Positions 2 to 26,461 of a stretch of DNA of 33,212 nucleotides are shown in pieces. The notes beneath the pieces were generated by a model that did no database searches, was not told the DNA's origin, and worked only from the letters and a program-made list of their open reading frames with translations. Each line of letters starts with the position of its first letter. Position 1 is the stretch's first letter. The DNA lies in the IMG/VR virus record IMGVR_UViG_3300009160_000101, positions 1-33,212 of that record. The stretch is one strand, 5' to 3'. Both the position numbers and the translations under genes were made by a program. Origin of the DNA: a virus.

Positions 2-2350
2 TTGAGAAAAATGATTCTGTATCCAAAAGAAAATGATATCTATTCTGTAGAAACAGACTTATTAGATAATAAAGGTTCTGTAGGAAGATCCGGGTTATTC
101 ATACCTGAGCAATGGTCTATGCCTCCCTATATTGATAACTTTGGTAATTCTCAAGTAGCAGAAGCCTTAGAAGCATTAGATGATCAGTTTGAAAAATGGA
201 AAAAAGAACTTGCTCCAGAAACTTACCAGTTAAGGATCTCTCAGCACCCAAGAAATATTGAAGAAGCTTTTGCTAACAGAACTATATCTAAGTTCCCAAT
301 GCATCTTGTAACAGCACAACAAAGAAGAATTGAAGATAAAGAATATGCTTATGAATTCTTAGATTTAGGCAGAGATGCCAACGGTAAAATACTTCCTGAG
401 CACAGTAACAAAAGACCTATTATAGAATTTCCAATTACAAAAAATACTGAAGATAAAACAGGAGTTCTTGTAGTATGGGAAAGACCAGTAGAGAATCCTA
501 CATTTGGAATGTACTATGCAAGTATTGACCCCGTAGCTGAGGGTAAAGCTGAATATGTTGATAATATGTTATATACACCAACAGGTAGAAAAAGAATAGG
601 TGATATACAAATAGGAGATAAAGTGATTGGTTCTGATGGTCAACCTATAAATGTAATTGGTGTATATCCTCAAGGTATTAAAGAATTATGTAAAATTACA
701 TTTAGTGATGGACACAGTATTAAAGTATGTGAAGATCACTTATGGAATGTAAAATTGAATGGTGGTACAAAAGGATACATTACTCTTTCTGTAAAAGATT
801 TATTAGACAATACTAAAACAATTACTTATACAGGCACGGGTAAAAATATTAAAAAAGAATACACAATTTCTACTTATTATAAGGATAAGCAAAATAGAAA
901 TAAATGGTCTATCCCTATTACTAAACCAGTTTTCTTTAAGGGTTCAGCAAAGTTATCTATTCATCCTTACTTGTTAGGTTTACTTTTAGGTGATGGAGGG
1001 TTATCACAAAAATCTATTAGATTTAGTACAGTTGATGAAGAATTAATTACTTATATTGAACACCTGTTAGATGATGATCTATTAATAAAAAAAGTAAAAA
1101 ATTCAAATTGTGATTATACAATTGTAAAAAAAACTGGTTCAAGAAATTCATTAACACAAAAATTAAAAGCCTTAGATTTAAAAGGTAGAAGATCTGAAGA
1201 TAAACATATACCTCATCAATATATGTATTCAACTATATACTCAAGATTTCTTTTATTGCAAGGTTTAATGGATACAGATGGTTCTTATTCAAATCATGGT
1301 GCTGAATTTTATTCATCATCAAAAATAATGGCTTATCAAGTTGTTGAATTAGTACAATCACTTGGAGGAATAGCAAAAATAAGATGTAAAAAAACAACTC
1401 ATCTAAATTCATATATTGTAAGAGTTTTATTACCTGAAGGCTTGACACCTTTTAGATTGAAAAGAAAAAGAGATATATACAAACCATCAAAAGTATTTAG
1501 CAGATACATAACAAATATAGAATGCATTAATGATGGAGAAGCGATTTGTATATCAGTTGATGCACCAGATAATCTTTATGTTACAGAACATGCTTTGGTT
1601 ACACATAATACAACCACATCTGAATCATTATGTTCTATCTATATTATGAAAGCTCCTGTAGAAGTAACAAAGGTTACCGGTATAGAAACTGAAACATACA
1701 TAGAACCAGATAAGATTGTAGCTGCATGGTGCGGAAGGTTTGATGATATTAACAAAACACACCAAAGACTGGAGACAATTATTGAGTGGTATAATGCCTG
1801 GACAGTAATTGAGAATAACATCTCATTATTTATTCAGTATATGATCTCTAGAAAGAAGCAGAAGTACTTAGTACCAAAAAGTCAAATAATGTTCTTAAAA
1901 GACCTGGGATCTAATAATTCAGTGTATCAGGAGTATGGTTGGAAGAATACTGGAACATTATTTAAAGCTCACTTACTAAGTTATGCTATTGAGTACACTA
2001 AAGAAGAACTTGATGTAGAAACTAAATCTGATGGTACTATTGTAAGAACTAAATATGGTATTGAAAGAATACCAGACATTATGTTATTAAAAGAAATGGC
2101 TGCATACTCAGATGGAGTCAATGTGGATAGACTTGTTGCCTTCTGTGCAATGGTTGCTTTCATGAGAATTCAGCAAGCTAATAGAGGTTATAGTAAAAGA
2201 GTTATCATGGATGATACGGCTAAAAACTTGCAAAAGTCAGAAAATTTGTATAAATTAAGTAGTAGTCCTTTCCGTCACATGGGTAGGAGTGCAGGTAGTT
2301 CATCAGGAGGAAAGAATATAAATAGATCTCCATTTAAAAATATAAGATAG
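2..2350 (+). CDS. terL: Terminase large subunit with intein (5' partial)
   Basis: TerL is the packaging motor: an ATPase plus an RNase-H-like nuclease that cuts concatemeric DNA and drives it through the portal. The reading frame is open to the left edge, so the start and the Walker motifs lie upstream. The first ~180 visible residues are the end of the ATPase domain and the linker (HPRNIEEAF). The nuclease begins at YYASIDPVAEGK, with Asp176 as the likely first metal ligand. The frame is then interrupted by a 354-residue intein (residues 183-536) and resumes with TTTSESLC. Downstream, RIPDIMLLKEM and NVDRLVAFCAM look like the last acidic motif of the fold. Without the intein the junction reads EGK-TTT and the nuclease is continuous. 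The gene ends in TAG, two bases before a homing endonuclease gene. Identification is supported by the portal and capsid genes that follow. Confidence 0.88.
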   Translation: MRKMILYPKENDIYSVETDLLDNKGSVGRSGLFIPEQWSMPPYIDNFGNSQVAEALEALDDQFEKWKKELAPETYQLRISQHPRNIEEAFANRTISKFPMHLVTAQQRRIEDKEYAYEFLDLGRDANGKILPEHSNKRPIIEFPITKNTEDKTGVLVVWERPVENPTFGMYYASIDPVAEGKAEYVDNMLYTPTGRKRIGDIQIGDKVIGSDGQPINVIGVYPQGIKELCKITFSDGHSIKVCEDHLWNVKLNGGTKGYITLSVKDLLDNTKTITYTGTGKNIKKEYTISTYYKDKQNRNKWSIPITKPVFFKGSAKLSIHPYLLGLLLGDGGLSQKSIRFSTVDEELITYIEHLLDDDLLIKKVKNSNCDYTIVKKTGSRNSLTQKLKALDLKGRRSEDKHIPHQYMYSTIYSRFLLLQGLMDTDGSYSNHGAEFYSSSKIMAYQVVELVQSLGGIAKIRCKKTTHLNSYIVRVLLPEGLTPFRLKRKRDIYKPSKVFSRYITNIECINDGEAICISVDAPDNLYVTEHALVTHNTTTSESLCSIYIMKAPVEVTKVTGIETETYIEPDKIVAAWCGRFDDINKTHQRLETIIEWYNAWTVIENNISLFIQYMISRKKQKYLVPKSQIMFLKDLGSNNSVYQEYGWKNTGTLFKAHLLSYAIEYTKEELDVETKSDGTIVRTKYGIERIPDIMLLKEMAAYSDGVNVDRLVAFCAMVAFMRIQQANRGYSKRVIMDDTAKNLQKSENLYKLSSSPFRHMGRSAGSSSGGKNINRSPFKNIR
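548..1609 (+). mobile_element. Class 3-type intein with LAGLIDADG endonuclease, inside TerL
   Basis: This in-frame element of 354 residues should excise itself from TerL by protein splicing. The N-terminal block (MLYTPTGRKRIGDIQIGDKV) is a Hint block A, but residue 1 is Ala instead of Cys or Ser. The C-terminal block ends in LVTHN followed by Thr, the His-Asn/+1 Thr junction. The three class 3 marker residues are all present: Trp in block B (HLW, codon 743), Cys in block F (AICISV, codon 1547) and Thr before the terminal His-Asn (codon 1601). A homing endonuclease occupies the middle, with LAGLIDADG-type motifs LLGLLLGDGG (around 971-1000) and LLQGLMDTDG (around 1253-1282). It is inserted directly after the Asp motif of the TerL nuclease, a conserved site typical for inteins. 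The exact N-terminal junction (Lys182/Ala183) comes from block spacing and is slightly less certain than the C-terminal one. Confidence 0.87.
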
Positions 2351-3031: not shown

Positions 3032-5773
3032 ATGCAAGTATATAATAGTTTGCAACTCAAAAAGGGAGCTAAAGCATCTCATAATAGAATGGGTTCAATC
3101 ACCCAACCACTTCAATTTATACTACGTGTTGAAAAGGATGAGGAGTGGGCAGCATGGTGCTTGGATTGGTTAGAATGGAATGGACTGAAACAGATCCGTA
3201 GAAATGCCCGCAGACTTATGAAAAACTATAAGTTGGCTAAAGGTATTATTGATAAGTCTGACTATATAGTTGAAGAAAACAATGAGATGAAAGATATTGT
3301 TGATGTATTAACTAGAGAAGACTGGTCTGCACTTGAATTAAAGTTCTATCCTATTATCCCAAATGTTATTAATGTTCTAGTAGCTGAATTTGCAAAAAGA
3401 ACTACCAAACTTTCATACAGAGGTATTGATGAATTCTCCTATAATGAAATGTTAGAGCAAAAAAGAAAGCTAGTTGAGGATACATTAATGGATGATGCTA
3501 AAATGAAAATTCAAGCAGCAATGCTTGAGCAAGGTTTAGATCCTGAATCAGAAGAAGCACAACAACAATTGTCTCCTGAAAATTTAAAGTCTCTTCCTGA
3601 GATTGAAAAATATATGCAGAAAGATTATAGATCCATGATAGAACAATGGGCTATACATCAACATCAAGTGGATAGTGAAAGATTTCATATGGATGAGCTT
3701 GAAGAAAGAGGATTCAGAGATATGCTTATTACAGACAGAGAATTTTGGCACATGAGAATGATGGAAGATGATTATGAAGTTGAACTTTGGAATCCTCCAG
3801 TAACTTTCTACCACAAATCTCCTGATGCAAGATACATTTCACAAGGTAACTGGGTTGGTAAAGTGGATATGCTCACCGTAGCTGATGTTATTGATAAGTA
3901 TGGTTACATGTTGACAGAAGAACAGCATGAAGGTCTTGAAGCAATTTATCCAATCAGATCTGCAGGTTATACTATTGGAGGGCAAAATGATGGTACATTC
4001 TATGATGCTACTAAGTCTCATGAATGGAATACTAACATGCCTTCATTAGCATACAGACAGTATACTAGTATGATGGCTGGTTCAGTTTATGATGGTGGAG
4101 ATATTGTTAACCAAATACTTTCTGAAGGAGAAGATTATTATGATCAAGGTACAGCTTACTTATTGAGAGTAACTACAGCGTACTGGAAGTCTCAAAGAAA
4201 AATTGGACATCTTACAAAAATTGCTGAAAGCGGTGAGGTGATCAATGAAATAGTAACAGAAGATTACAAGATTACTGATAAACCAATCTATGATAATAGA
4301 TTATTCAAAAACAAAACAAAAGACACTTTGCTTTTTGGAGAACATATTGACTGGATTTGGATTAATGAAGTTTGGGGTGGTGTTAAAATTGGTCCAAATA
4401 TTCCTTCATTCTGGGGTATGAACAATCCTGGAGGTTTCTCTCCAATCTATATTGGTACAGATAAGAATCATATTGGTCCATTAAAGTTTCAATTTAAAGG
4501 TGATAACAGTTTGTATGGATGCAAGCTTCCTGTAGAAGGAGCAGTATTCTCTGATAGAAATACTAAGTCAACAGCTTTGTTAGACTTAATGAAGCCATAC
4601 CAGATTGGATACAACATTGTAAACAATCAGATTGCTGATATACTAGTTGATGAGTTAGGAACAGTAATTTTACTTGATCAGAATTCACTACCAAGACACT
4701 CAATGGGTGAAGACTGGGGTAAGAACAATTTATCAAAAGCATATGTGGCAATGAAGAATTTCCAGATGCTTCCTTTGGATACCTCAATAAGCAATACAGA
4801 AAACCCTCTTAACTTCCAGCACTTTCAGAAATTAGATCTTTCACAAACAGAAAGGCTAATGTCAAGAATCAAATTAGCAGAGCACTTTAAACAACAAGCT
4901 TATGAAGTAATTGGTATCAACCCTCAAAGATTAGGACAAGAGTTAACACAAACTACAGCTACAGGTGTAGAACAGGCTAAGAGTGCTTCTTATGCACAAA
5001 CTGAGATGTTCTTCATGCAGCACTGTGATTACTTAATGCCAAGAGTACACCAGATGAGAACTGACTTAGCTCAATACTATAATTCAACAAAACCATCTGC
5101 AAGACTTACATACATGACATCTCAGGATGAAAAAGTAAATTTTGAAATAAATGGTACTGATTTATTAATGAGAGATCTTAATATCTTCTGTAGTACAAAT
5201 GCAAATAACAGAGCTGTATTAGAGCAATTGAAACAAATGGCTTTAACAAACAATACAACTGGAGCAACAATCTTTGATCTTGGTAAAATTGTTCAAGCTG
5301 ATAGTATATCTGAAGTTACAGGTACACTTAAAGCTGCTGAAGAAAAAATGAACAAGCAAAAACAAGAGGAGCAACAACATCAACAAGAAATGCAACAGCA
5401 ACAACTTGATTCTCAAGAGAAACAAAAGAAAATGGAACTTGATGCAGCTGAATTGAGAGATGAGAAAAATAGACAAAAAGATATTCTTGTTGCTGAAATA
5501 CGCGCGGCAGGTATGGGTGCTATGACTGATGTTAATGAAAATAAACAATCAGACTTCTTAGATGCTATGAAAGAGATCAGAGCTACTGAAGAGTTTCAAG
5601 ATCAAACAAACTTACAGAGAGAAAAGGAAACTAATAGAATGAATAATGATTCTCAGAAAGCTCAAATTGAAAGAGAAAAGATCCAAGCTCAAAGAGAAAT
5701 AGCAGATAAACAATTGCAGGTTGCAAGAGAAAATAAAACAAAAAGTGAATTAAAAGCAGATAAAAAAATATGA
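3032..5773 (+). CDS. Portal protein
   Basis: A 913-aa protein placed directly after terL, at the position and approximate size of crAss-like portals. It would form the dodecameric ring at the unique capsid vertex through which DNA enters and leaves. The N-terminal ~250 residues are helical and charged. The central part has mixed sheet with tryptophan-rich segments (DWIWINEVWGG). Residues ~560-690 include PRLGQELTQTTATGVEQA and then FFMQHCDYLMPRVHQ, which look like the portal stem/wing helices. Residues ~770-913 are a long Gln/Glu/Lys-rich coiled-coil tail with almost no hydrophobic core, probably the barrel or a flexible extension. Its ATG follows the preceding endonuclease stop by one base, and its TGA overlaps the next ATG (ATGA). 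The assignment rests on position, size and pattern recognition, not on a database hit. Confidence 0.82.
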   Translation: MQVYNSLQLKKGAKASHNRMGSITQPLQFILRVEKDEEWAAWCLDWLEWNGLKQIRRNARRLMKNYKLAKGIIDKSDYIVEENNEMKDIVDVLTREDWSALELKFYPIIPNVINVLVAEFAKRTTKLSYRGIDEFSYNEMLEQKRKLVEDTLMDDAKMKIQAAMLEQGLDPESEEAQQQLSPENLKSLPEIEKYMQKDYRSMIEQWAIHQHQVDSERFHMDELEERGFRDMLITDREFWHMRMMEDDYEVELWNPPVTFYHKSPDARYISQGNWVGKVDMLTVADVIDKYGYMLTEEQHEGLEAIYPIRSAGYTIGGQNDGTFYDATKSHEWNTNMPSLAYRQYTSMMAGSVYDGGDIVNQILSEGEDYYDQGTAYLLRVTTAYWKSQRKIGHLTKIAESGEVINEIVTEDYKITDKPIYDNRLFKNKTKDTLLFGEHIDWIWINEVWGGVKIGPNIPSFWGMNNPGGFSPIYIGTDKNHIGPLKFQFKGDNSLYGCKLPVEGAVFSDRNTKSTALLDLMKPYQIGYNIVNNQIADILVDELGTVILLDQNSLPRHSMGEDWGKNNLSKAYVAMKNFQMLPLDTSISNTENPLNFQHFQKLDLSQTERLMSRIKLAEHFKQQAYEVIGINPQRLGQELTQTTATGVEQAKSASYAQTEMFFMQHCDYLMPRVHQMRTDLAQYYNSTKPSARLTYMTSQDEKVNFEINGTDLLMRDLNIFCSTNANNRAVLEQLKQMALTNNTTGATIFDLGKIVQADSISEVTGTLKAAEEKMNKQKQEEQQHQQEMQQQQLDSQEKQKKMELDAAELRDEKNRQKDILVAEIRAAGMGAMTDVNENKQSDFLDAMKEIRATEEFQDQTNLQREKETNRMNNDSQKAQIEREKIQAQREIADKQLQVARENKTKSELKADKKI

Positions 5774-7510: not shown

Positions 7511-9130
7511 ATGAGTACTCCAGTTTTAAACAATGGTATATTCCTACGTGATACTGCATACAATGCAAGTTCACATGTGGATTCTTACCACTTAGTAAAC
7601 ATGTTAAAGGATGCGCAACCAATGGATTTAGGTCCAGTTGACTTATGGGCTATGGCTCAAAAAGTTGAGATGCCACTTTATCAAATGTCTTCTTTCGGTG
7701 GAAAGAATGTAATTATGGTTGACAATGCAAGAGGTGAGTATAGATGGCAAACTCCGGTTTCTATTGACCTTCCTTATGTAATTGAAGACATTGAACCAGA
7801 CAATGAATTCAAAGGAATTGAAGGTTCAACATTCCGTATTAAATTGAACAGACGTGAGTTTGGACATGGTGATATCATCACTTATGACAAATACAACGGT
7901 GTTGAGATGTACATTACTGCAGAAGATATTCTTCCAATTGGTGATGGTTTCATCTACACAGTTCAATTAGTGAACAATGACAATTTCAAATTCTTGGATA
8001 ACAAGTATTTGTCTAATGGTACTAAAGTATTCCGTAAAGGTTCTGCACGTGGTGAATATGGAGAAAGATTCTCTGATATCCAAACAAGAGCAGGATTCCG
8101 TGAATTCTACAACTTTGTTGGTGGTGCTGAAGCTCACGTACATTATTCTATCTCTTCTAGAGCAGATTTGATGATCAAAGGAGGAATGAATGCAGATGGA
8201 ACAGTTCCTGTAACTGAAATCTGGAGAACATTTGATTCTAACTTAAATGATCCATCTATTGCTAACTTAGATGACATGGTTAAGAAATTAGGTAAAGACA
8301 AAGTTAAAAAAGCTTTTGACAATGGTGATTTATCTAGAACATTCTTAACTACAATGGAATCTGCTCACTTGTCTAAAATTGCTACAGATATTGAAACTTA
8401 CTTAATGTGGGGTCAAGGTGGTAAAGTTAAACAAGATGGTCCAGATGATTTAAGATTGTCAGTGGGTCTTTGGAAACAGTTGGATAACTCTTTCAAAAGA
8501 ATCTACAACAAAAACAACTTTACATTGGATTTATTCCGTGGAGAGATCTACAACTTCTTTAATGGTAAAGTTGAGTTCCAAGGTCCAGATCCAAAACGCT
8601 CTCTAGTTGTACAAACTGGTATGGGTGGTATGAGAATGGTAAATGAGGCTATCAAACGTGAGGCAGTATCTTCAGGTTTATTGATTCAAGCTGCTGATAT
8701 AGGTGCAATCACTGGTAAAGGTATGGACTTGAACTTTGGATTTGCATACACTTCATATGTTATCCCATTCTTGGCTAACGTGAAATTTGTATTGAATCCA
8801 GCATTTGACAATGTTCACACAAATGATATTGAAAACCCAATTATTGATGGTTTCCCATTATCTTCTTATTCATTCATTATCTTTGATATTACTGATAATA
8901 CTAATGATAACATCTTCTTATTGAAATTATCTTGGGATAATCAATTGAAATGGTGGTATCAAAATGGTACTATGGATTACATGGGTAGAACTCAAGGGTT
9001 CCAATCTTCAGGTCAATTCAATGGATACCGTGTAATGATGTCTCAAACAATGCCAGCTATTTGGGTTAAAGATCCAACTAAAGTATTGAAAATTGTTATG
9101 AGAAACCCTATTACAGGAGGAAGTTTTTGA
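7511..9130 (+). CDS. Major capsid protein
   Basis: A 539-aa protein, similar in size to crAss-like MCPs and located after portal and scaffold genes; it should have the HK97 fold and build the icosahedral shell. The N-terminus (LRDTAYNASSHVDSYHLVNM) is helical, followed by a mixed alpha/beta body. The segments GKGMDLNFGFAYTSY and IIDGFPLSSYSFIIFD lie in the C-terminal third. Codon use differs from nearly all neighbours: CGT arginine and C-ending Phe/Asn/Tyr/Ile codons are frequent, where other genes use AGA and A/T-ending codons, a mark of very high expression. The ATG at 7511 follows a 27-base A/T-only spacer. No Shine-Dalgarno is present. Immediately downstream a homing endonuclease gene with its own promoter is inserted. 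Confidence 0.78.
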   Translation: MSTPVLNNGIFLRDTAYNASSHVDSYHLVNMLKDAQPMDLGPVDLWAMAQKVEMPLYQMSSFGGKNVIMVDNARGEYRWQTPVSIDLPYVIEDIEPDNEFKGIEGSTFRIKLNRREFGHGDIITYDKYNGVEMYITAEDILPIGDGFIYTVQLVNNDNFKFLDNKYLSNGTKVFRKGSARGEYGERFSDIQTRAGFREFYNFVGGAEAHVHYSISSRADLMIKGGMNADGTVPVTEIWRTFDSNLNDPSIANLDDMVKKLGKDKVKKAFDNGDLSRTFLTTMESAHLSKIATDIETYLMWGQGGKVKQDGPDDLRLSVGLWKQLDNSFKRIYNKNNFTLDLFRGEIYNFFNGKVEFQGPDPKRSLVVQTGMGGMRMVNEAIKREAVSSGLLIQAADIGAITGKGMDLNFGFAYTSYVIPFLANVKFVLNPAFDNVHTNDIENPIIDGFPLSSYSFIIFDITDNTNDNIFLLKLSWDNQLKWWYQNGTMDYMGRTQGFQSSGQFNGYRVMMSQTMPAIWVKDPTKVLKIVMRNPITGGSF

Positions 9131-10072: not shown

Positions 10073-11089
10073 ATGGATAATTTCACAATGGTTGAGACCG
10101 GTAAGGGCTCAGTTAAAAAAACAGCAATAGCTGTAAGACCTTTCTTTGACAATTCCTCTTCTAACATGGGTTTAGAAGATTATGGGATGAGTTTATTTGA
10201 TGGGGTAACACACTCTGAACAAATTGCTTGTTTAGACAATAATGGTGTAGTAAGATACCTTACTGGACTGAATGAATTTGCACCGGAAATAAAACTTCTT
10301 AATGAAGAAGATAGAGCTGCAAAGGTAAGAGAGATAAGAAGTGCTGTAGCTGAGTTAGAAAAAGAATTAGCTGCAAATGTAATTGATATTGAAGATCCAA
10401 TGTTTTGGAATCAAGTAAAATTACTACAACCAAACAATAAAGATTTTTGGAATAAGATTTCCATTTCTTGTGGTAATGAACCTTTGTTCTTAGACCCAAG
10501 AGATCCTTATGATAGAATCAAACTTTATGCAATTGAAGCAGGAGGATTTTCTCTTGTATCAAAAAGTTTTGATGATGCTAGATCCAAAGCTGTTCCACCT
10601 AAGTTTTACTTAGATAAAGAAGAAGAAACAGTAATGGTAAGAACTGAATACAAAAAGCTGCGTAATAAAGCACTTGCTGAACTTCAGAAATTATTTGACA
10701 AAAACAGTACTAAGTTGTTTTACATTGCTAAGGTGGTGGATATCAACAGTACACAATATAGAAAATCAACTCCTAATGATGTAATCTATGAAAACATGGA
10801 TGTATTCATCAACGGTTTAGGAGGAGAAAGTAACAAAGAAAGAGCAGCTAAATCATTTATGGATGTAGCTAATCTTGATATGGAAACACTAAAAATTAAA
10901 TCAATTGTTAGAGATTCCGTATTTTTTAAGTATATTATAAATAAGGCAGATGGTTATATCTACCACACTAAGTCAGGTGCTATGCTTGGAAGAAATGTGT
11001 CTGATGTAGTTGAGCATATGAAGAACCCTTTAAATGAGGATATCTTAAAAGACTTGAACGCTGCTTGTGAAAAGTATTGGAACTCTTAA
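10073..11089 (+). CDS. Probable virion/head protein of unknown function
   Basis: A 338-aa soluble protein with no signal peptide, membrane segment or catalytic motif that I recognise. Residues ~80-105 form a charged coiled coil (DRAAKVREIRSAVAELEKEL). This is followed by IEDPMFWNQVKLLQPNNKDF, and then a central aromatic region with the phrase DPRDPYDRIKLYAIEAGG. The C-terminal half alternates helices and short strands. Its place directly after the capsid gene (ignoring the inserted endonuclease), the strong A/C-rich leader and the conserved-looking full-length frame suggest a structural or assembly protein. Possibilities include a minor head protein or a protease/scaffold partner, but nothing in the sequence decides between them. 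Confidence 0.5.
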   Translation: MDNFTMVETGKGSVKKTAIAVRPFFDNSSSNMGLEDYGMSLFDGVTHSEQIACLDNNGVVRYLTGLNEFAPEIKLLNEEDRAAKVREIRSAVAELEKELAANVIDIEDPMFWNQVKLLQPNNKDFWNKISISCGNEPLFLDPRDPYDRIKLYAIEAGGFSLVSKSFDDARSKAVPPKFYLDKEEETVMVRTEYKKLRNKALAELQKLFDKNSTKLFYIAKVVDINSTQYRKSTPNDVIYENMDVFINGLGGESNKERAAKSFMDVANLDMETLKIKSIVRDSVFFKYIINKADGYIYHTKSGAMLGRNVSDVVEHMKNPLNEDILKDLNAACEKYWNS

Positions 11090-11768: not shown

Positions 11769-12716
11769 ATGGCAAAATTAATTCCTTATGCATTAAAAAA
11801 TCCAAAAACAGATACTGTTGTACCTGGTGCTTTAATTCTTTCTAGTATTAAACCGGTATCAGGAGATTGGTTTCCTGTTGTAGAAGGTATTGAAAGAAAT
11901 ACAATTAATCCTGTAGACTATGATACTACAGTTAAAGTAACTTATCCTGGAGCAGTTAATGTTCAAAGATTTGGTGATTATGCTAAATCTTTTATACAAG
12001 AAAAAGGTTACTTTCCAGATAATATAGTTTTATCAGATTCAATTTGTTCTGATGATATAGATGGTCCTATTTATTCAGATATTTCAAACATTGGTCAGAC
12101 TCCTGCATCTCAGAATCAGTTTTTAGGTGCATTCATGGCAGGTGGTTTAGCTGGTTATCCTCACACAGGTATATTAGGTATACAAGCTTGGGGATCACAT
12201 GTTACAACAAGTACAAATGGTGGTTTGTTTATGATTAATACACCGCATATTGGAATATCAAGAACAGGTAGTGTAGGAAGGATTTGGAGAAGAGGAAAGA
12301 GTGAAACGCAATCTTTAACGGATAATACTTGTGGTGCAGTTGCTACAGCAATTACATGGGTAGCAGCAAATGCTGTTGCTCCAGTTGTAACAAACTTTCC
12401 AAATGATTATCAAAACTATACTCTATGTGCTATACTATTTCCATTTAAAGCGGCTCTTGCAGCTATAACAACTTATGGAGCTAAAATGGTTTATGCTACT
12501 GAAAAAATAAGATTAGCTTCAAATACTTTTTTAACAGGTGCAACAGGAATAATTGATGCTAATGTTGGAACAGAAATTGATGTATTTTATTGTTCGGGAA
12601 CATTTATTAATACAGATGATGGATATAATGCTTATATTAATGTTACATCATTTAAAAAATATAATAGTGTTGGTGGATGGGTAGATTTAACTACATCATT
12701 TTTAGCAGGTTTATAA
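11769..12716 (+). CDS. LCIB-type beta-carbonic-anhydrase-like protein
   Basis: A 315-aa protein with features I recognise from the LCIB/LCIC (theta, beta-related) carbonic anhydrase family. Residues 91-97 read SICSDDI, like the family's Cys-x-Asp zinc-site strand. LGAFMAGGLAGYPHTG (119-134) resembles the Gly-rich loop, and GSHV (142-145) follows. NTPHIGISRTGSVGRIWRRG (157-176) resembles the hallmark PHIGI...G..G...R.G segment, and TCGAV (187-191) the ACGA zinc-binding strand. Candidate zinc ligands are Cys93, His160 and Cys188, with Asp95 next to the site. The N-terminal ~75 residues have the pattern expected of a small lead-in domain. The protein lies between small basic head genes, not near any metabolic gene. 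It might be an active enzyme, or the fold may be reused as a capsid decoration protein. The residue pattern is visible; the fold and activity are inferred. Confidence 0.55.
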   Translation: MAKLIPYALKNPKTDTVVPGALILSSIKPVSGDWFPVVEGIERNTINPVDYDTTVKVTYPGAVNVQRFGDYAKSFIQEKGYFPDNIVLSDSICSDDIDGPIYSDISNIGQTPASQNQFLGAFMAGGLAGYPHTGILGIQAWGSHVTTSTNGGLFMINTPHIGISRTGSVGRIWRRGKSETQSLTDNTCGAVATAITWVAANAVAPVVTNFPNDYQNYTLCAILFPFKAALAAITTYGAKMVYATEKIRLASNTFLTGATGIIDANVGTEIDVFYCSGTFINTDDGYNAYINVTSFKKYNSVGGWVDLTTSFLAGL

Positions 12717-12727
12717 AATTAATAACT

Positions 12728-13456
12728 ATGGCAAAGACAGCAGCACTTTATTCAGTGTATTGTTTTACAAATAATATTAATAATAAAAAGTATATTGGTA
12801 TTACTTCTGATGTAAAAAGAAGATTTAAGCAACATAAAGGAATGAGAAGCAGAGCAGTTGTTTTTTGTTTGGCTATTAAAAAGTATGGGTTTGAAAAATT
12901 TAAATTTGAAATACTAAAAGATAATTTAACTTTAGAAGATGCAAAACTATTTGAAGTACAGTTTATTCAAGAACTAAACTCTATGGTTCCAAATGGATAT
13001 AATAGAACAAAAGGTGGTGACTATTCTGTAAAACATACAATAGCAACTATTGAAAAAATAAAAGAAAAAAATAGACTTTATAGATTAAATAATCCAGACC
13101 CAAGAAAAGGAAAAAAACATTCAGAAGAAACTAAAAAAGTAATGAGTAAGTTAGCATCTGAAAGAACAGATAGACCAAGAGGTGATAGACATTGGAATTA
13201 CGGAAAGAAAACTAGTGACTTATCAAAACAAAAAATGAGTATTAGCCAAACATTAGGTAATAATGGTTTTGCAAAAAAAGTTATAGATTTAAATACTAAT
13301 ATTGTTTATTCTTGTATAAATGAAGCAAAACAAGTATATAACATTAGTCATTCATTTATAAGCATGGTTTGCACTGGAAAAAAAACAAGTGATAAATATA
13401 ATTTTAAATATTTAAAAGATTATGAGCAAGAAAAGTGTGTCACTATCAATTTCTAG
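12728..13456 (+). CDS. GIY-YIG homing endonuclease with NUMOD motifs (3)
   Basis: A 242-aa endonuclease. The GIY-YIG core is clear (YSVYCFTNNINNKKYIGITS, residues 8-27), followed by RRFKQHKG, a KKYGFEKFKFEIL segment and the Glu helix AKLFEVQFIQELNS. GYNRTKGG closes the nuclease domain. NUMOD3-like motifs (PDPRKGKKHSEETKK and HWNYGKKTSDLSKQK) and a NUMOD1-like tail (KKVIDLNTNIVYSCINEAKQ) follow. I start it at the ATG at 12728; an upstream ATG at 12677 lies inside the preceding gene. The start ATGGCAAAG copies the initiation sequence of many genes around it. The last 35 bases overlap the beginning of the next gene, so the element uses the host gene's 5' end as its own 3' end. Confidence 0.88.
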   Translation: MAKTAALYSVYCFTNNINNKKYIGITSDVKRRFKQHKGMRSRAVVFCLAIKKYGFEKFKFEILKDNLTLEDAKLFEVQFIQELNSMVPNGYNRTKGGDYSVKHTIATIEKIKEKNRLYRLNNPDPRKGKKHSEETKKVMSKLASERTDRPRGDRHWNYGKKTSDLSKQKMSISQTLGNNGFAKKVIDLNTNIVYSCINEAKQVYNISHSFISMVCTGKKTSDKYNFKYLKDYEQEKCVTINF

Positions 13457-13697
13457 GGGTGAAAAATCAAAGTCTGGAGGTCTTACAGCAAAAGGGGTAG
13501 CTAAATACAATAATGCTACTGGAGGAAATATGAAGACAGCTGTTACTACTAAGCCATCAAAGCTTGATCCAGATAGCAAAGATGCTAAGAGAAGAAAAAG
13601 TTTTTGTAGCAGGATGTCAGGGGTTGATGGACCTATGAAAGATGAGAAGGGAAGACCAACAAGAAAAGCATTAGCTTTAAGAAAATGGAATTGTTAA
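13422..13697 (+). CDS. Small basic protein, DUF6321-like (91 aa)
   Basis: A 91-aa basic protein whose pattern I associate with a small phage family (DUF6321-like). It has GEKSKSGGLTAKGVAKYNNA near the N-terminus, RRKSFCSRMSGVDGP in the middle and LALRKWNC at the end. The conserved SFC-RMSG and C-terminal W-x-C are both present, which suggests two functional cysteines. Its start overlaps the upstream GIY-YIG gene by 35 bases in another frame. An internal Met lies too far inside the conserved region to be the start. Members occur in head/packaging regions of diverse phages, and a DNA-binding or virion role is plausible but unproven. Confidence 0.7.
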   Translation: MSKKSVSLSISRGEKSKSGGLTAKGVAKYNNATGGNMKTAVTTKPSKLDPDSKDAKRRKSFCSRMSGVDGPMKDEKGRPTRKALALRKWNC

Positions 13698-14637: not shown

Positions 14638-15336
14638 ATGTTAAACAGTGCAATTGAAATAAAAATTAAGCAGCGTATCAATAAATTAGATTCTCAAGAC
14701 TATGACAACATTCAATGTTGGCAGATTGTTGAGGTATTTAATAAAGCTCAGGTAGAATGGGTAAGAAGACAATTGCATGGTATTAACTTGGTTAAAGAAG
14801 GGGATGAGCAATCTACAAGAAGAAAAGATGATCTTCAAGTATTACTTTCCCTACTTACTTTGAATCCTTTAAAAAGAGAATCTTATTTCCAATGTAATAT
14901 TCCAGGTGATTATCTACAATGGAAAAGGATAGATACTTTTGCAAAAAAGGATTGTTGTGATAAAAGAAGAATGGCTGTATATCTTGCAGAAGAAGGTAAC
15001 CTTACTCAACTTCTAAGAGATAAATCTAAACAACCCAGTTTTGAGTGGGGAGAAACATTTGCAACATTAATAAACAATACAATTCATATTTATACTAATG
15101 ATGAATTTGATGTTGAAAGTGCTTCACTTGTTTATTACAGACAACCAAGAAAAGTACAATTTTTAAATTGTTCTGATCCTTATACAGGAGTTGCATCAAC
15201 AGCTGATATTGAGTGTGAGTTGAAAGATGATATAATTGAATTAATAATTGATGAAGCAGTTTCATTACTTGCTGGAGATATTGAGTCAGGAAACCAATTC
15301 TCTAGAGGTACTCAAGGTGCTGAACGTAACAACTAA
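14638..15336 (+). CDS. Ring/connector-like head-tail protein
   Basis: A 232-aa protein resembling proteins I know from crAss-like phages that stack below the portal. Residues 5-45 are helical (IKQRINKLDSQDYDNIQCWQ). WVRRQLHGINLVKEGDEQST follows, then a beta-rich centre with LLRDKSKQPSFEWGETFATL and a conserved-looking IHIYTNDEF strand. YYRQPRKVQF and DPYTG come next. A C-terminal helix (DDIIELIIDEAVSLLAGDIE) would line the ring. The layout (helices, beta barrel, closing helix) is shared by the proteins at 27160 and 27831. This fits the crAss-like virion, in which several ring proteins form the tail barrel. Which ring it matches cannot be decided here. Confidence 0.62.
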   Translation: MLNSAIEIKIKQRINKLDSQDYDNIQCWQIVEVFNKAQVEWVRRQLHGINLVKEGDEQSTRRKDDLQVLLSLLTLNPLKRESYFQCNIPGDYLQWKRIDTFAKKDCCDKRRMAVYLAEEGNLTQLLRDKSKQPSFEWGETFATLINNTIHIYTNDEFDVESASLVYYRQPRKVQFLNCSDPYTGVASTADIECELKDDIIELIIDEAVSLLAGDIESGNQFSRGTQGAERNN

Positions 15337-15341
15337 AAATA

Positions 15342-15800
15342 ATGGAACCAAGAATGTTAAAAAGAAATCCTGGAACAAGTAAGCCAGCAGCAAGTTATCC
15401 TACTGTAGAAGCAGGTGCATCAGTAGATACTATGACCGCAGCTTGTGTAAGTGAATTAATGAATGCTGCTACTAGTATTCATAAGCTACACTTAAAGATT
15501 ACAGGAGCAGGCTCCTATGCAGCTCATAAAGCATTAAATGAATTGTATGATGCTTTACCTGGACACGCTGATGATTTAGCAGAAGGTTACCAAGGAGCAA
15601 GTGAGAAACTATTATCATACAGTGAGTCATCACCAAGAGTATTAAACAGTGTAGATGATGCATTAAAATACATCCGTGATATTTGTGATATGGTTTGTGG
15701 ATTACAAGATAAGATGCCATATTCAGAAATTGTAAATGATCTTGACACAATTAAGTCTACACTTAATTCAACCAAGTACAAGTTACTTTTCCTTAAATAA
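15342..15800 (+). CDS. Dps/ferritin-like four-helix protein
   Basis: A 152-aa, mostly helical protein with the Dps signature. LHLKITGAGSYAAHKALNEL followed by YDALPGHADDLAEGYQG gives His50, His62, Asp77 and Glu81 in the spacing H-x11-H-x14-D-x3-E, identical to the ferroxidase ligands of Dps proteins. The second-site Asp of Dps (four residues after the second His) is Asn66 here. Residues 28-45 and 100-145 supply the other helices. The first ~25 residues are a disordered lead. Similar short Dps-like or DUF5856-type proteins occur in some phages. It lies between a ring-like and a major structural gene, with five bases to the former. It may oxidise iron or protect packaged DNA, or the helical bundle may simply be structural. 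The motif is directly visible; the role is inferred. Confidence 0.62.
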   Translation: MEPRMLKRNPGTSKPAASYPTVEAGASVDTMTAACVSELMNAATSIHKLHLKITGAGSYAAHKALNELYDALPGHADDLAEGYQGASEKLLSYSESSPRVLNSVDDALKYIRDICDMVCGLQDKMPYSEIVNDLDTIKSTLNSTKYKLLFLK

Positions 15801-21050: not shown

Positions 21051-22691
21051 ATGGGAAAATATAAAGTATTTAATGGTTCTAATTGGGTAGATATATGTGA
21101 TTGCAATGTTCATATAAGAAATGCAAATGATAATTGGCAATTACTTGATCCTGCAAATTGTGTAACAAAATATTGGACAGGTACTGAATGGTGTGAAATT
21201 GTATGCTGTAGCTGTGCAGAAGGTTATACATTAAACACATTAACTAATATATGTGAAAAAGTAGAAAGAATTCCTGCTACAGCAAGTGGTGGTACATTTT
21301 ATCCTATTATTGTAGGTAATAAAGCCGTTGTATATGGAAATCTTGGTGGAGCACTATATCCAAATATTACAGGAGCTACGTTTCCAATCAATGGCTACAG
21401 TAGTCCTACATATATAGTTAAAGATGCTGCAGGTACTGGTCTAACATATTCGCCTACATTATCTGTAGCTGGTAACCAAATATTTAATTCAAATGGTACA
21501 ACTACAGGAGGTAGATTGAATTATAATTCACTATGGGGAACTGATTATCCATTTAATACATGGTTTACTCTTAGATTTTGTATTACAATTACACAAGATA
21601 AAACTTATATTTTTGCATTAGCTGGAGATAATCAAGTAAAGGCTGGTATAACATCAACAACATTTCAGGGAGGTGTAACAAGTTTAAATTTAGTTAATCT
21701 TTGGGCTTCACCTAGTTCTTCAGGAACTCCTCCAGATCCATCAAATACAGGACCTTTTAATTATTGGCATATGTTTCCTATAAATCTACCTGTAGGGGAT
21801 CATGTTTTTGAATTATCTGGTTATAACTTTTTTGATTTATACGGGTTTGCTGCTGAAGTTTATGATATACCTGTTTTAGATTTACAAAATTTAATGGCTT
21901 CAAGTACAGCAACTGTTGATGATCTTGAGCCTTATATAATGTTCAAAACAAAAGATTTAATTGTAGATCCTCCAATTAGATTACCTCAGGCAGGTAGTAC
22001 AGGAATAACCTATTCCTGTCCAAGCGGTTATACGTTTACAGAATGTTATGGAGCACCACAATGTACACTTGATCTTAGTTATCCTTGTGGCGGTACACCA
22101 GATCCTTGTGCTTGTATTACTGGAGAAGTTGTTATTGGAACACAAACTTGGACTTGTAAAAACTTAGATGTTACAACTTACAGAAATGGAGACCCCATAC
22201 CTGAAGTGACGGATCCTACTGCGTGGGCTGCTTTAACTACTGGTGCATGGTGTTACTACGATAATGATCCTGCAAATAATGCCGTATATGGAAAATTATA
22301 TAACTGGTATGCTGTTAATGATCCTCGCGGATTAGCCCCTACTGGTTATCACGTAGCGACAGATGATGAATGGACGGTTTTAATAAATTATGTAGGTGGA
22401 ACAACTGTTGCAGGGGGCGAATTGAAAGAGATTGGAAATACACATTGGAATTCTCCTAATACAGGTGCAATAAATAGCGTGTGTTTTACTGCTCTTGGGG
22501 GTTCACTCCGTTTTGATACTGGAAATTTTAATAGTAACATGAATGAAGTCGGTATGTGGTGGACTTCTACAAATTACAGTTTAAATACGGTCAGTGCTTG
22601 GAGCCACTTCATTTACAGTTACAGTGGTCAGATAAACAGAAGCCCCTATCTTAAAACAGCTGGATTTTCTGTAAGACTTATAAAAGATTAG
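21051..22691 (+). CDS. Adhesin with C-terminal FISUMP domain
   Basis: A 546-aa multi-domain protein. Residues 1-75 hold two short WVDICDCN / WCEIVCCSC modules (KVFNGSNWVDIC, KYWTGTEWCEI), common openings of phage fibre proteins. Residues ~80-335 form a beta-sandwich-like region with many aromatic residues (TWFTLRFCITITQDKTYIFA, PVGDHVFELSGYNFFDLYGF), perhaps carbohydrate binding. A CPSGYTFTEC segment leads into a FISUMP domain at residues 358-546 (VIGTQTWTCKNLDVTTYRNG, GAWCYYDND, GKLYNWYAVNDPRGLAP, ending FSVRLIKD). FISUMP is a lectin-like domain abundant in Bacteroidota lipoproteins. The C-terminal 45 codons use many C-ending codons (10 of 23 pyrimidine-ending ones), unlike most of the gene cluster. 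The likely role is the receptor-contact tip. Confidence 0.7.
   Translation: MGKYKVFNGSNWVDICDCNVHIRNANDNWQLLDPANCVTKYWTGTEWCEIVCCSCAEGYTLNTLTNICEKVERIPATASGGTFYPIIVGNKAVVYGNLGGALYPNITGATFPINGYSSPTYIVKDAAGTGLTYSPTLSVAGNQIFNSNGTTTGGRLNYNSLWGTDYPFNTWFTLRFCITITQDKTYIFALAGDNQVKAGITSTTFQGGVTSLNLVNLWASPSSSGTPPDPSNTGPFNYWHMFPINLPVGDHVFELSGYNFFDLYGFAAEVYDIPVLDLQNLMASSTATVDDLEPYIMFKTKDLIVDPPIRLPQAGSTGITYSCPSGYTFTECYGAPQCTLDLSYPCGGTPDPCACITGEVVIGTQTWTCKNLDVTTYRNGDPIPEVTDPTAWAALTTGAWCYYDNDPANNAVYGKLYNWYAVNDPRGLAPTGYHVATDDEWTVLINYVGGTTVAGGELKEIGNTHWNSPNTGAINSVCFTALGGSLRFDTGNFNSNMNEVGMWWTSTNYSLNTVSAWSHFIYSYSGQINRSPYLKTAGFSVRLIKD
22122..22688 (+). repeat. FISUMP domain, copy 1
   Basis: The 189-codon domain at the end of the 546-aa protein. 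Landmarks are GDPIPEVTDPTAWAALTTGA, YGKLYNWYAVNDPRG, the WWTST strand and the terminal SVRLIKD. It shares the exact 17-mer GATCCTACTGCGTGGGC with copy 3, which points to a common source. Confidence 0.75.
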
Positions 22692-24631: not shown

Positions 24632-26461
24632 ATGGGATTTATTAAGAATATAGAAATTTGGAATAATCAAAGACCAAGAGTTTGTTCTTTTGATTTAGAT
24701 GATTATTGTTATTATTATGGTGCTGTAGGAAACACTTGTACTGAAAATACAGCAGCTCCAGATATGACAGGAAATGGTGATATGTTTACAACTGCTAATG
24801 CAACACATGATGTATGGGCAAAAGCAGTTATAGAATATTTTACAGCTTCAATTGCTTTTTATAGAGAAGCTGATTATCAAGATCCTGTAACTGGAGAAAT
24901 AATTATTCCACAAGTTTTAAATGAAAGGTGTATTCCACGTGATGAATACAATAAATTATGTAATTTATTCTATAATCAAACTGATGGGTTTTACATGAAA
25001 GATATTGCATTTCAAGCAAAGAAAATGCAAATTAGAAACTCATTTAAACTTAATACTGATCCTAATAAACTTACAGGTATTCATTCTTTTACTCAACTTA
25101 TTGAAACTTCACCGCAATCAACAGGTATAATATATACATATACAGTAGATTTTACAGATTATCAAGCACCTGATTATAATCACTATTTAGAATATAGAAC
25201 TGTTTTAGGGGATCTAATGCAACTTGTTAAAAAACTTATGACTGCTACAGCTGATCATCCTTTAACACCTTTTGAGATTCCTCCAATGTGTTCAGGTGAT
25301 GTAGTTATTGGTGATCAAACTTGGAATCAATGTAATTTAGGTGTAACAACATATAAGAATGGTGATCCTATTCCTTATGTGGAAGATCCGGTTGAATGGG
25401 CTGCTTTGACTACGGGTGCTTGGTGTTACTATGACAATAATCCAGATACTGAACCTGCATTTGGTAAGTTATACAATTGGTATGCAATTAATGATTCTAG
25501 AGGTTTAACTCCAGAAGGATATCATATACCAACACGTTATGAATGGCAAACTTTAATTGATACAGTAGGTGGAAATGCAACTGCAGGAATAGCATTGAAA
25601 CAAATTGGTTCATTGGATAGAACTTGTGTTACAGAAATAAATGCTTCATATTGGCAATATGCTTCTATTGATCCTCCAACTAATTCAAGTTTTTTCACAG
25701 CATTACCGGCTGGAGAACGTACACAAAATGGTGATTATCTTTATTCTGGTTATCTTGCTTATTGGTGGACTACTGCAGAAGAAAGTGTAAATAATGCATG
25801 GTATGGTAATTTGAATTATAATACAAATGAAGCTTATAGCACTAATAATTCTAAAAAATTTGGTTTATCAGTTAGAGCTGTAAAAGATCCAACATGTGCT
25901 GATGATGTTACTATTGGATCTCAAGTATGGACTAGATGTAATTTAGGTATAACAACATACAGAAACGGAGATGTAATTCCTCAGGTTACTGATCCTACTG
26001 CGTGGGCATCATTAACAACAGGTGCTTGGTGTTACTATAATAATGATCCTTTAACTGAACCTTTATATGGTAAATTATATAACTGGTATGCTGTAAACGA
26101 TCCTAGAGGTCTTTCACCAGTAGGTTATCATATTCCTACCGATGGTGAAGTTGCTACATTATCAACTTATTTAGGTGGCGATTCAGTAGCAGGAGGTAAG
26201 ATGAAAGAAATAGGTTTAAGTTATTGGATTGCTCCCAATACCGCTGCCACAAATGAATCAGGATTTACAGCACTTCCAGCAGGTTACCGTGTAAATGGTG
26301 GAAATTTTTCAAATATTGGGAAAGTTACTCGTTGGTGGACTTCTACAGAAGTTGATACTCTTGATGCAGGAAGTTATGATTTAGATAATACAAATCCTAA
26401 TTTATTTAGAGGCTCCTATGGAAAAAACTGGGGTCACTCTGTCAGACTTGTTAAAGATTAA
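24632..26461 (+). CDS. Adhesin with two tandem FISUMP domains
   Basis: A 609-aa protein. Residues 1-220 are a unique, mainly helical/aromatic region (FDLDDYCYYYGAVGNTC, HDVWAKAVIEYFTASIAFYR) that may attach to the tail. Two FISUMP domains follow at residues ~222-420 and ~423-609. Both have the motif set VIGDQTWNQCNLGVTTYKNG / TIGSQVWTRCNLGITTYRNG, TTGAWCYY, GKLYNWYA and WWT, and end in SVRAVKD and SVRLVKD. Copy 2 is ~12 residues longer because of an insertion around CVTEINASYWQYASIDPP. The C-terminal copy probably forms the exposed tip. A strong terminator follows 50 bases after the stop, closing the adhesin operon. Together with the 546-aa gene it gives three FISUMP domains per locus. Confidence 0.7.
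   Translation: MGFIKNIEIWNNQRPRVCSFDLDDYCYYYGAVGNTCTENTAAPDMTGNGDMFTTANATHDVWAKAVIEYFTASIAFYREADYQDPVTGEIIIPQVLNERCIPRDEYNKLCNLFYNQTDGFYMKDIAFQAKKMQIRNSFKLNTDPNKLTGIHSFTQLIETSPQSTGIIYTYTVDFTDYQAPDYNHYLEYRTVLGDLMQLVKKLMTATADHPLTPFEIPPMCSGDVVIGDQTWNQCNLGVTTYKNGDPIPYVEDPVEWAALTTGAWCYYDNNPDTEPAFGKLYNWYAINDSRGLTPEGYHIPTRYEWQTLIDTVGGNATAGIALKQIGSLDRTCVTEINASYWQYASIDPPTNSSFFTALPAGERTQNGDYLYSGYLAYWWTTAEESVNNAWYGNLNYNTNEAYSTNNSKKFGLSVRAVKDPTCADDVTIGSQVWTRCNLGITTYRNGDVIPQVTDPTAWASLTTGAWCYYNNDPLTEPLYGKLYNWYAVNDPRGLSPVGYHIPTDGEVATLSTYLGGDSVAGGKMKEIGLSYWIAPNTAATNESGFTALPAGYRVNGGNFSNIGKVTRWWTSTEVDTLDAGSYDLDNTNPNLFRGSYGKNWGHSVRLVKD
25295..25897 (+). repeat. FISUMP domain, copy 2
   Basis: The first FISUMP domain of the 609-aa protein (codons from 25295). 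It keeps GDPIPYVEDPVEWAALTTGA and YGKLYNWYAI-type motifs (here FGKLYNWYAI). Its codons are almost all A/T-ending, unlike copy 1, so it is better adapted to the phage genome. Confidence 0.72.
25901..26458 (+). repeat. FISUMP domain, copy 3
   Basis: The second FISUMP domain of the 609-aa protein (codons from 25901). It ends with WGHSVRLVKD, nearly the same terminus as copy 1, and shares a 17-base exact match with it (GATCCTACTGCGTGGGC). Confidence 0.72.

Follow-up and report, generated by a model that had tools for sequence, protein, structure and literature searches.

Results

The locus and its phage

The stretch of DNA analysed here, hereafter the window, is 33,212 nucleotides long and was assigned to a crAss-like phage from its terminase with an intein-like insert, its portal, its capsid protein and a ring-like protein. 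Its capsid protein matched crAss001 gp32 with E=0.0011 by sequence and with 95.5% probability by profile alignment, and the portal gene precedes the capsid gene on one strand, as in Crassvirales-type synteny. The region coding for the terminase large subunit (window 2-2350) is split by an intein-like Hint/LAGLIDADG region. The capsid protein also matched that of Leptolyngbya phage Lbo-JY46. A cyanobacterial host, as this second match might imply, is disfavoured, since a Shine-Dalgarno-like motif was found upstream of none of the 23 window genes, whose leaders are A/T-rich as in Bacteroidota, and since Fib_succ_major domains also point to Bacteroidota. A 251-nt segment occurs in three diverged copies in the genes of two Fib_succ_major proteins (window 21051-22691 and 24632-26461). 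In Bacteroides phages, domains of this kind are targeted by diversity-generating retroelements; here, between 18 and 33 kb, the three copies were evident but no diversity-generating repeat pair.

Within the head region lies an intact and real open reading frame for a protein of the LCIB/theta-carbonic anhydrase (CA) family (Table 1). The longest ORF of the adjoining GIY-YIG gene overlaps its 3' end, an overlap that an internal Met at 12728 would abolish. An earlier note, made from the sequence alone, had described the LCIB gene as embedded among small basic head genes. The gene does lie inside the head gene cluster, but its small basic neighbours, one of which is a DUF6321 protein, are not demonstrated head proteins, and another neighbour is the GIY-YIG homing endonuclease. 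A DUF6321 protein also adjoins LCIB in L043, L044 and L045, which belong to another phage type, and the GIY-YIG gene of L045 is 69% identical to that of the window while the LCIB proteins are only about 40% identical. Sequence comparison suggests that these two genes are mobile neighbours common to different phage types. A DUF5856/Dps-like gene (window 15342-15800) is kept across the crAss-like clade, and in the unrelated L044 group a Dps-like gene is likewise found close to LCIB.

Table 1. Positions of the features discussed, in window numbering
Feature	Position	Strand	Remarks
Portal protein	3032..5773	+	phrog_6547, E=1e-96
Major capsid protein, crAss001 gp32 type	7511..9130	+	Sequence and profile match
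Gene in crAss001 gp33 position	10073..11089	+	Conserved synteny; gp33 profile match weak
LCIB/theta-CA family gene	11769..12716	+	315 aa, ATG start; coordinates include stop codon
N-terminal docking-type module, outside LCIB fold	11769..11909	+	Residues 1-47
LCIB-fold domain	11910..12713	+	Residues 48-315; Pfam match 65-296, superposition 48-313
Cys93, predicted zinc ligand (PtLCIB4 Cys46)	12045..12047	+	64/64 phage homologues
Asp95 (PtLCIB4 Asp48)	12051..12053	+	64/64 phage homologues
Gly99, replacing PtLCIB4 Arg52	12063..12065	+	Gly or Ala in 64/64
His144 (PtLCIB4 His88)	12198..12200	+	62/62 covering sequences
His160, predicted zinc ligand (PtLCIB4 His102)	12246..12248	+	61/61 covering sequences
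Arg174 of RRG motif	12288..12290	+	61/61 covering sequences
Cys188, predicted zinc ligand (PtLCIB4 Cys126)	12330..12332	+	61/61 covering sequences
GIY-YIG/NUMOD3 homing endonuclease adjoining LCIB gene	12677..13456	+	Longest ORF
DUF6321 small protein	13422..13697	+	Recurrent LCIB neighbour in unrelated phages
Ring-protein-like gene closing variable site	14638..15336	+	PF25710 below cut-off; phrog_29507 virion structural

The protein is an LCIB relative

LCIB-type enzymes are known from algal CO2-concentrating mechanisms. A Pfam scan of the window protein gave LCIB_C_CA (PF18599) as its sole match, at 92.6 bits against a cut-off of 25 (E=2.9e-26), and nine further phage records passed the same cut-off. 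When the sequences of solved structures were searched, only LCIB-family proteins were retrieved, with 6kfs as the best match (E=1.1e-14) and PtLCIB4 at E=4e-11. The four segments from which the earlier note had recognised the LCIB/LCIC family are all present in the order it gave, namely SICSDDI at residues 91-97, AGGLAGYPHTG at 124-134, PHIGISRTGSVGRIWRRG at 159-176, and TCGAV at 187-191.

An AlphaFold model built with 51 homologues reached a pLDDT of 81.9 and superseded an earlier, poor model from 14 sequences (pLDDT 64); loop 99-115 at the active site was predicted poorly. Foldseek ranked LCIB proteins first with this model (E about 1e-14), and VIA-align superposed it on 6kfs with a Z of 23.5 over 239 residues at 2.6 A. 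The corresponding Z values were 23.2 for PtLCIB4, 18.5 for LCIB and 18.0 for LCIC, whereas classical beta-CAs scored about 10. Residues 1-47 are extra to the fold. The comparison with PF18599 and the structural overlay, both proposed in the earlier note as checks of its LCIB/carbonic-anhydrase identification, thus bear it out: the window protein is a genuine LCIB relative, with similarity far past chance. The LCIB fold itself is already known. The protein had no PHROG assigned to it and zero matches among 50,697 phage records, and a search of a viral structure library gave nothing significant.

The zinc site is conserved among phage homologues

Conservation was assessed over a non-redundant set of 64 phage homologues, which come from five or more phage backgrounds and whose identity goes down to 39%. 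PtLCIB4 numbering was derived by counting from the S47R and H88A structure entries, and the alignment pairs PtLCIB4 residues with window residues as listed in Table 1. Cys93, His160 and Cys188, the candidate zinc ligands of the earlier note, were correctly numbered there and are kept in all homologues that cover them. Of the 315 columns, 35 are invariant, and Cys93, Asp95, His144, His160 and Cys188 are all among them (chance p=1.3e-5). Pairwise dN/dS was 0.13-0.33 in 14 of 15 pairs and 0.56 in the remaining pair, for which dS was 0.03; the LCIB gene is under purifying selection. In the tandem LCIB pairs of L121 (a 202,880-base record) and L123, the zinc site is kept in both copies. These tandem genes lie at L121:9611-11674 and L123:9596-11717, and the N-terminal part of the first copy is longer and different.

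One zinc-site position departs from the cellular proteins. The Arg six residues past the first zinc Cys (PtLCIB4 Arg52) is kept in all three of the solved cellular sequences used for comparison, and is replaced in the phage homologues by Gly (n=24) or Ala (n=40). This Arg is not known as family-defining; since it is lost in the whole set, we regard the phage proteins as a distinct subfamily. At the position of PtLCIB4 S47, where the S47R mutant was made, the phage homologues have Ser or Ala. Judging from the alignment, the loss of Arg52 together with the gain of His132 could have changed the substrate.

An N-terminal module shared with other phage proteins

We compared the N-terminal ends of the LCIB proteins with all other ORFs and found their first ~45 residues again on other phage proteins. 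A scan with this module gave 234 matches. The kept loci contain 125 ORFs with the module, and in 120 of these it starts no later than residue 15; of the 125, 10 are LCIB proteins, and the other 115 fall into about 49 passenger clusters. In all, at least 119 non-LCIB phage proteins carry it, and more than 100 phage proteins with it lie in loci L208-L283, L030, L031, L044 and L068-L103. A model derived from 119 non-LCIB modules recovered 18 crAss-like LCIB N-termini (E 5e-7 to 0.07) and matched no shuffled N-terminus; it recognised the window's own N-terminus weakly (E=0.012). In L103, three consecutive genes begin with the module, the third being LCIB. Among the crAss-like relatives the module was found on LCIB proteins only.

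The recognisable passengers are BspA-type LRR, Fib_succ_major, ice-binding-like, PKD and Lcl_C domains and Thr-rich stalks, which by their sequences are extracellular adhesion or display types. At L281:3400-4281 the module is fused with an ice-binding-like domain (PF11999, E=5e-51), a passenger that is unusual for a phage. In L034-L038, whose phages have T4 Gp23-type capsids, the LCIB N-terminus is unrelated to the module and matches the TASYV-repeat fibre-like protein of the same phages. The LCIB domain has thus been joined to two N-terminal parts, each of which occurs on display-type proteins of the same phages. No significant similarity was detected between the module and crAss001 gp21/gp29, the scores lying inside the shuffled-control range, or between the module and solved structures. 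Annotated phages gave no match to the LCIB protein, the module or the module consensus, and two weak ones to the different, fibre-type N-terminus. From its sequence distribution, the module would seem to be a display tag in general use among phages.

Display by such a tag could also be reconciled with a protein that does not catalyse anything, in which the zinc would be structural or bind a ligand and the LCIB fold would serve as an adhesin or decoration. Most of the passengers that can be recognised are binding domains, Arg52 is missing from every phage member, and recombinant LCIB and LCIC show no CA activity despite keeping the zinc motif (PMC5876011). However, that inactivity was ascribed to disorder of His162/161 and Arg194/193 (PMC5876011), and window His144 and Arg174, which look equivalent to these residues and align with conserved positions of the active site, do not vary among the covering phage homologues. 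Moreover, a mere binding surface would need no retention of every zinc-site residue across 40% identity. On these sequence grounds we consider non-catalytic display unlikely, and an enzymatic use of the conserved site more likely than a pure scaffold.

The LCIB gene is accessory

In crAss001 and Lbo-JY46 the counterparts of the window genes at 10073 and 14638 are adjacent, whereas in the window LCIB, homing endonucleases and small proteins lie between them. A capsid-first scan kept 80 loci, two of which (L006 and L023) were already known as LCIB carriers; among the 44 loci unselected for LCIB that spanned this interval, none had LCIB. The gene is therefore accessory and the interval a variable site. 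Nor does LCIB identity follow capsid identity: the capsid and LCIB values are 69% and 68% in L015, and 82% and 54% in L019. In the LCIB tree, several nodes of which have low support, the two crAss-like groups are not united in a single clade. The mismatch and the split groups together indicate exchange or replacement between phages.

The L121 and L123 records contain further homologues, as do the L031 group, marked by a very large tail-type protein cluster, the L044 group, whose phages have RIIA/RIIB genes, and phages that have T4 Gp23-type capsids; in these last (L034), LCIB lies a short way past the capsid gene. In four of five lineages the genes with which LCIB lies are structural, fibre-like, anchored or lysis-type. 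A supposed homologue in L048 proved to be a spurious short match. No cellular relatives were confirmed in two pattern scans of genome contigs, and none were found in plasmids.

This distribution bears on two other explanations. The earlier note had offered, as one of two alternatives, an enzyme fold recruited as a capsid protein. The position in the head cluster would fit a core structural protein, as would the short distance to the capsid gene in two phage types that are unrelated; however, the gene is accessory in its own clade, the viral structure library holds nothing similar at a significant level, and the zinc-site residues are kept except at PtLCIB4 Arg52. This alternative loses support, and we rejected it on distribution as very improbable. 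The protein could instead be an intracellular auxiliary CA, made late, which would provide bicarbonate for pyrimidine or fatty-acid synthesis or act on pH, the head operon being a convenient late transcription unit. Its accessory, patchy and apparently horizontally exchanged occurrence resembles that of auxiliary metabolic genes, and the conserved zinc site agrees with such a role. However, a module common to adhesion-type Thr-rich proteins has no obvious use inside the cell, and the structural and fibre-like company of the gene also argues against it. We regard an intracellular function as quite unlikely.

Discussion

Our preferred reading, to which we give a probability of about one half, is that the LCIB protein is a module-docked, outward-displayed and exchangeable passenger whose CA-like zinc site is most likely catalytic. 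The protein would be made late, together with the other head genes. Residues 1-47 would form a small, beta-rich module by which passengers are anchored on a phage-made particle or surface structure; docked in this way on the head or tail, the LCIB domain would face outward, and its predicted zinc site would come near the host surface, where it would most likely catalyse the interconversion of CO2 and HCO3- or some other, closely related CA-like reaction. The gene would accordingly be a swappable passenger and not a core part of the capsid.

We favour display with an enzyme because of the family and fold match, the kept zinc site and the purifying selection. The display part is favoured because of the modularity of the N-terminus, its adhesion and display passengers, the gene triplet of L103 and the fibre-type N-terminus in L034-L038, and because the head fibres gp21 and gp29 of crAss001 provide a precedent (PMC10172136). 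Against the reading as a whole we counted the absence of a match to gp21/gp29 or solved structures, the restriction of the module to LCIB in crAss-like phages and the weak score of the window's own N-terminus. Against its enzymatic part we counted the loss of Arg52 in all 64 homologues, the zinc-motif LCIB homologues without CA activity (PMC5876011) and the poor prediction of loop 99-115. The other alternative of the earlier note, a virion-carried enzyme, gains indirect support from the N-terminal module, which the LCIB protein shares with many phage proteins that bear extracellular adhesion-type domains.

In the open-licence papers searched we found no previous description of an LCIB/theta-CA protein encoded by a phage, and none of a phage LCIB subfamily that is encoded among structural genes and has a common N-terminal dock. 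The statement of the earlier note that this family has no established role in phage virions likewise agrees with the open-licence papers, phage records and PHROGs searched. To our knowledge, no virion-borne CA has been known before, and a virion-carried CA-like enzyme, if true, would be the first. That a phage LCIB clade whose zinc site is intact occurs in at least five backgrounds, joined to a common display-type module, raises the question of whether particles carry an enzyme for CO2/bicarbonate or a similar substrate, and what it is for. The module is also of use in its own right: more than 100 phage proteins that otherwise have no annotation are marked by it as probable passengers at the surface, and it would allow cargo to be predicted from sequence. 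We propose tentatively, and with some doubt, that unrelated aquatic phages share a dock with interchangeable passengers, one of which would be a working virion-carried CA-like zinc enzyme.

Comparison with known systems

The closest known proteins are the theta-type CAs LCIB, LCIC and PtLCIB4 (PDB 6kfs, 5b5y, 5k5w, 5b5x). The phage protein shares with them the fold (Z 18-23.5), the Cys-His-Cys ligands, an Asp two residues past the first Cys, the His equivalent to PtLCIB4 His88, the RRG motif and the Gly-rich loop. Unlike them, it has the additional 47 N-terminal residues and an insertion, NIGQxPxSxNxFLG; the first Cys of CCGS is Thr or Ser in the phage homologues, and these are encoded in phage structural gene regions. 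PtLCIB4 differs further in Arg52, as described above, and in Phe76, which corresponds to His132 in 61 of 63 phage homologues. The classical beta-CAs of E. coli and H. influenzae resemble the window protein in a distant fold and a site of the Cys-His-Cys type, but their Foldseek E-values are weak, and the window protein has CSDDI in place of CxDxR.

For the layout, the nearest parallel is found in the crAss001 head fibres gp21 and gp29, which bind the capsid through their first 38 and 58 residues while the remainder projects (PMC10172136). Homologues of these fibres are absent from most crassvirus groups, in which uncharacterised proteins might act analogously (PMC10172136). A short N-terminal part followed by a C-terminal domain is common to both, with capsid binding known for gp21/gp29 and docking on the particle presumed for the LCIB protein; however, their N-termini have no detectable homology, and the C-terminal part is an LCIB fold in one case and a small beta domain in the other. 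Finally, the phage Fib_succ_major, BspA-LRR and ice-binding-like proteins begin with the same N-terminal module as the LCIB protein, but their passenger is of the adhesion type, whereas that of the LCIB protein is an enzyme fold.
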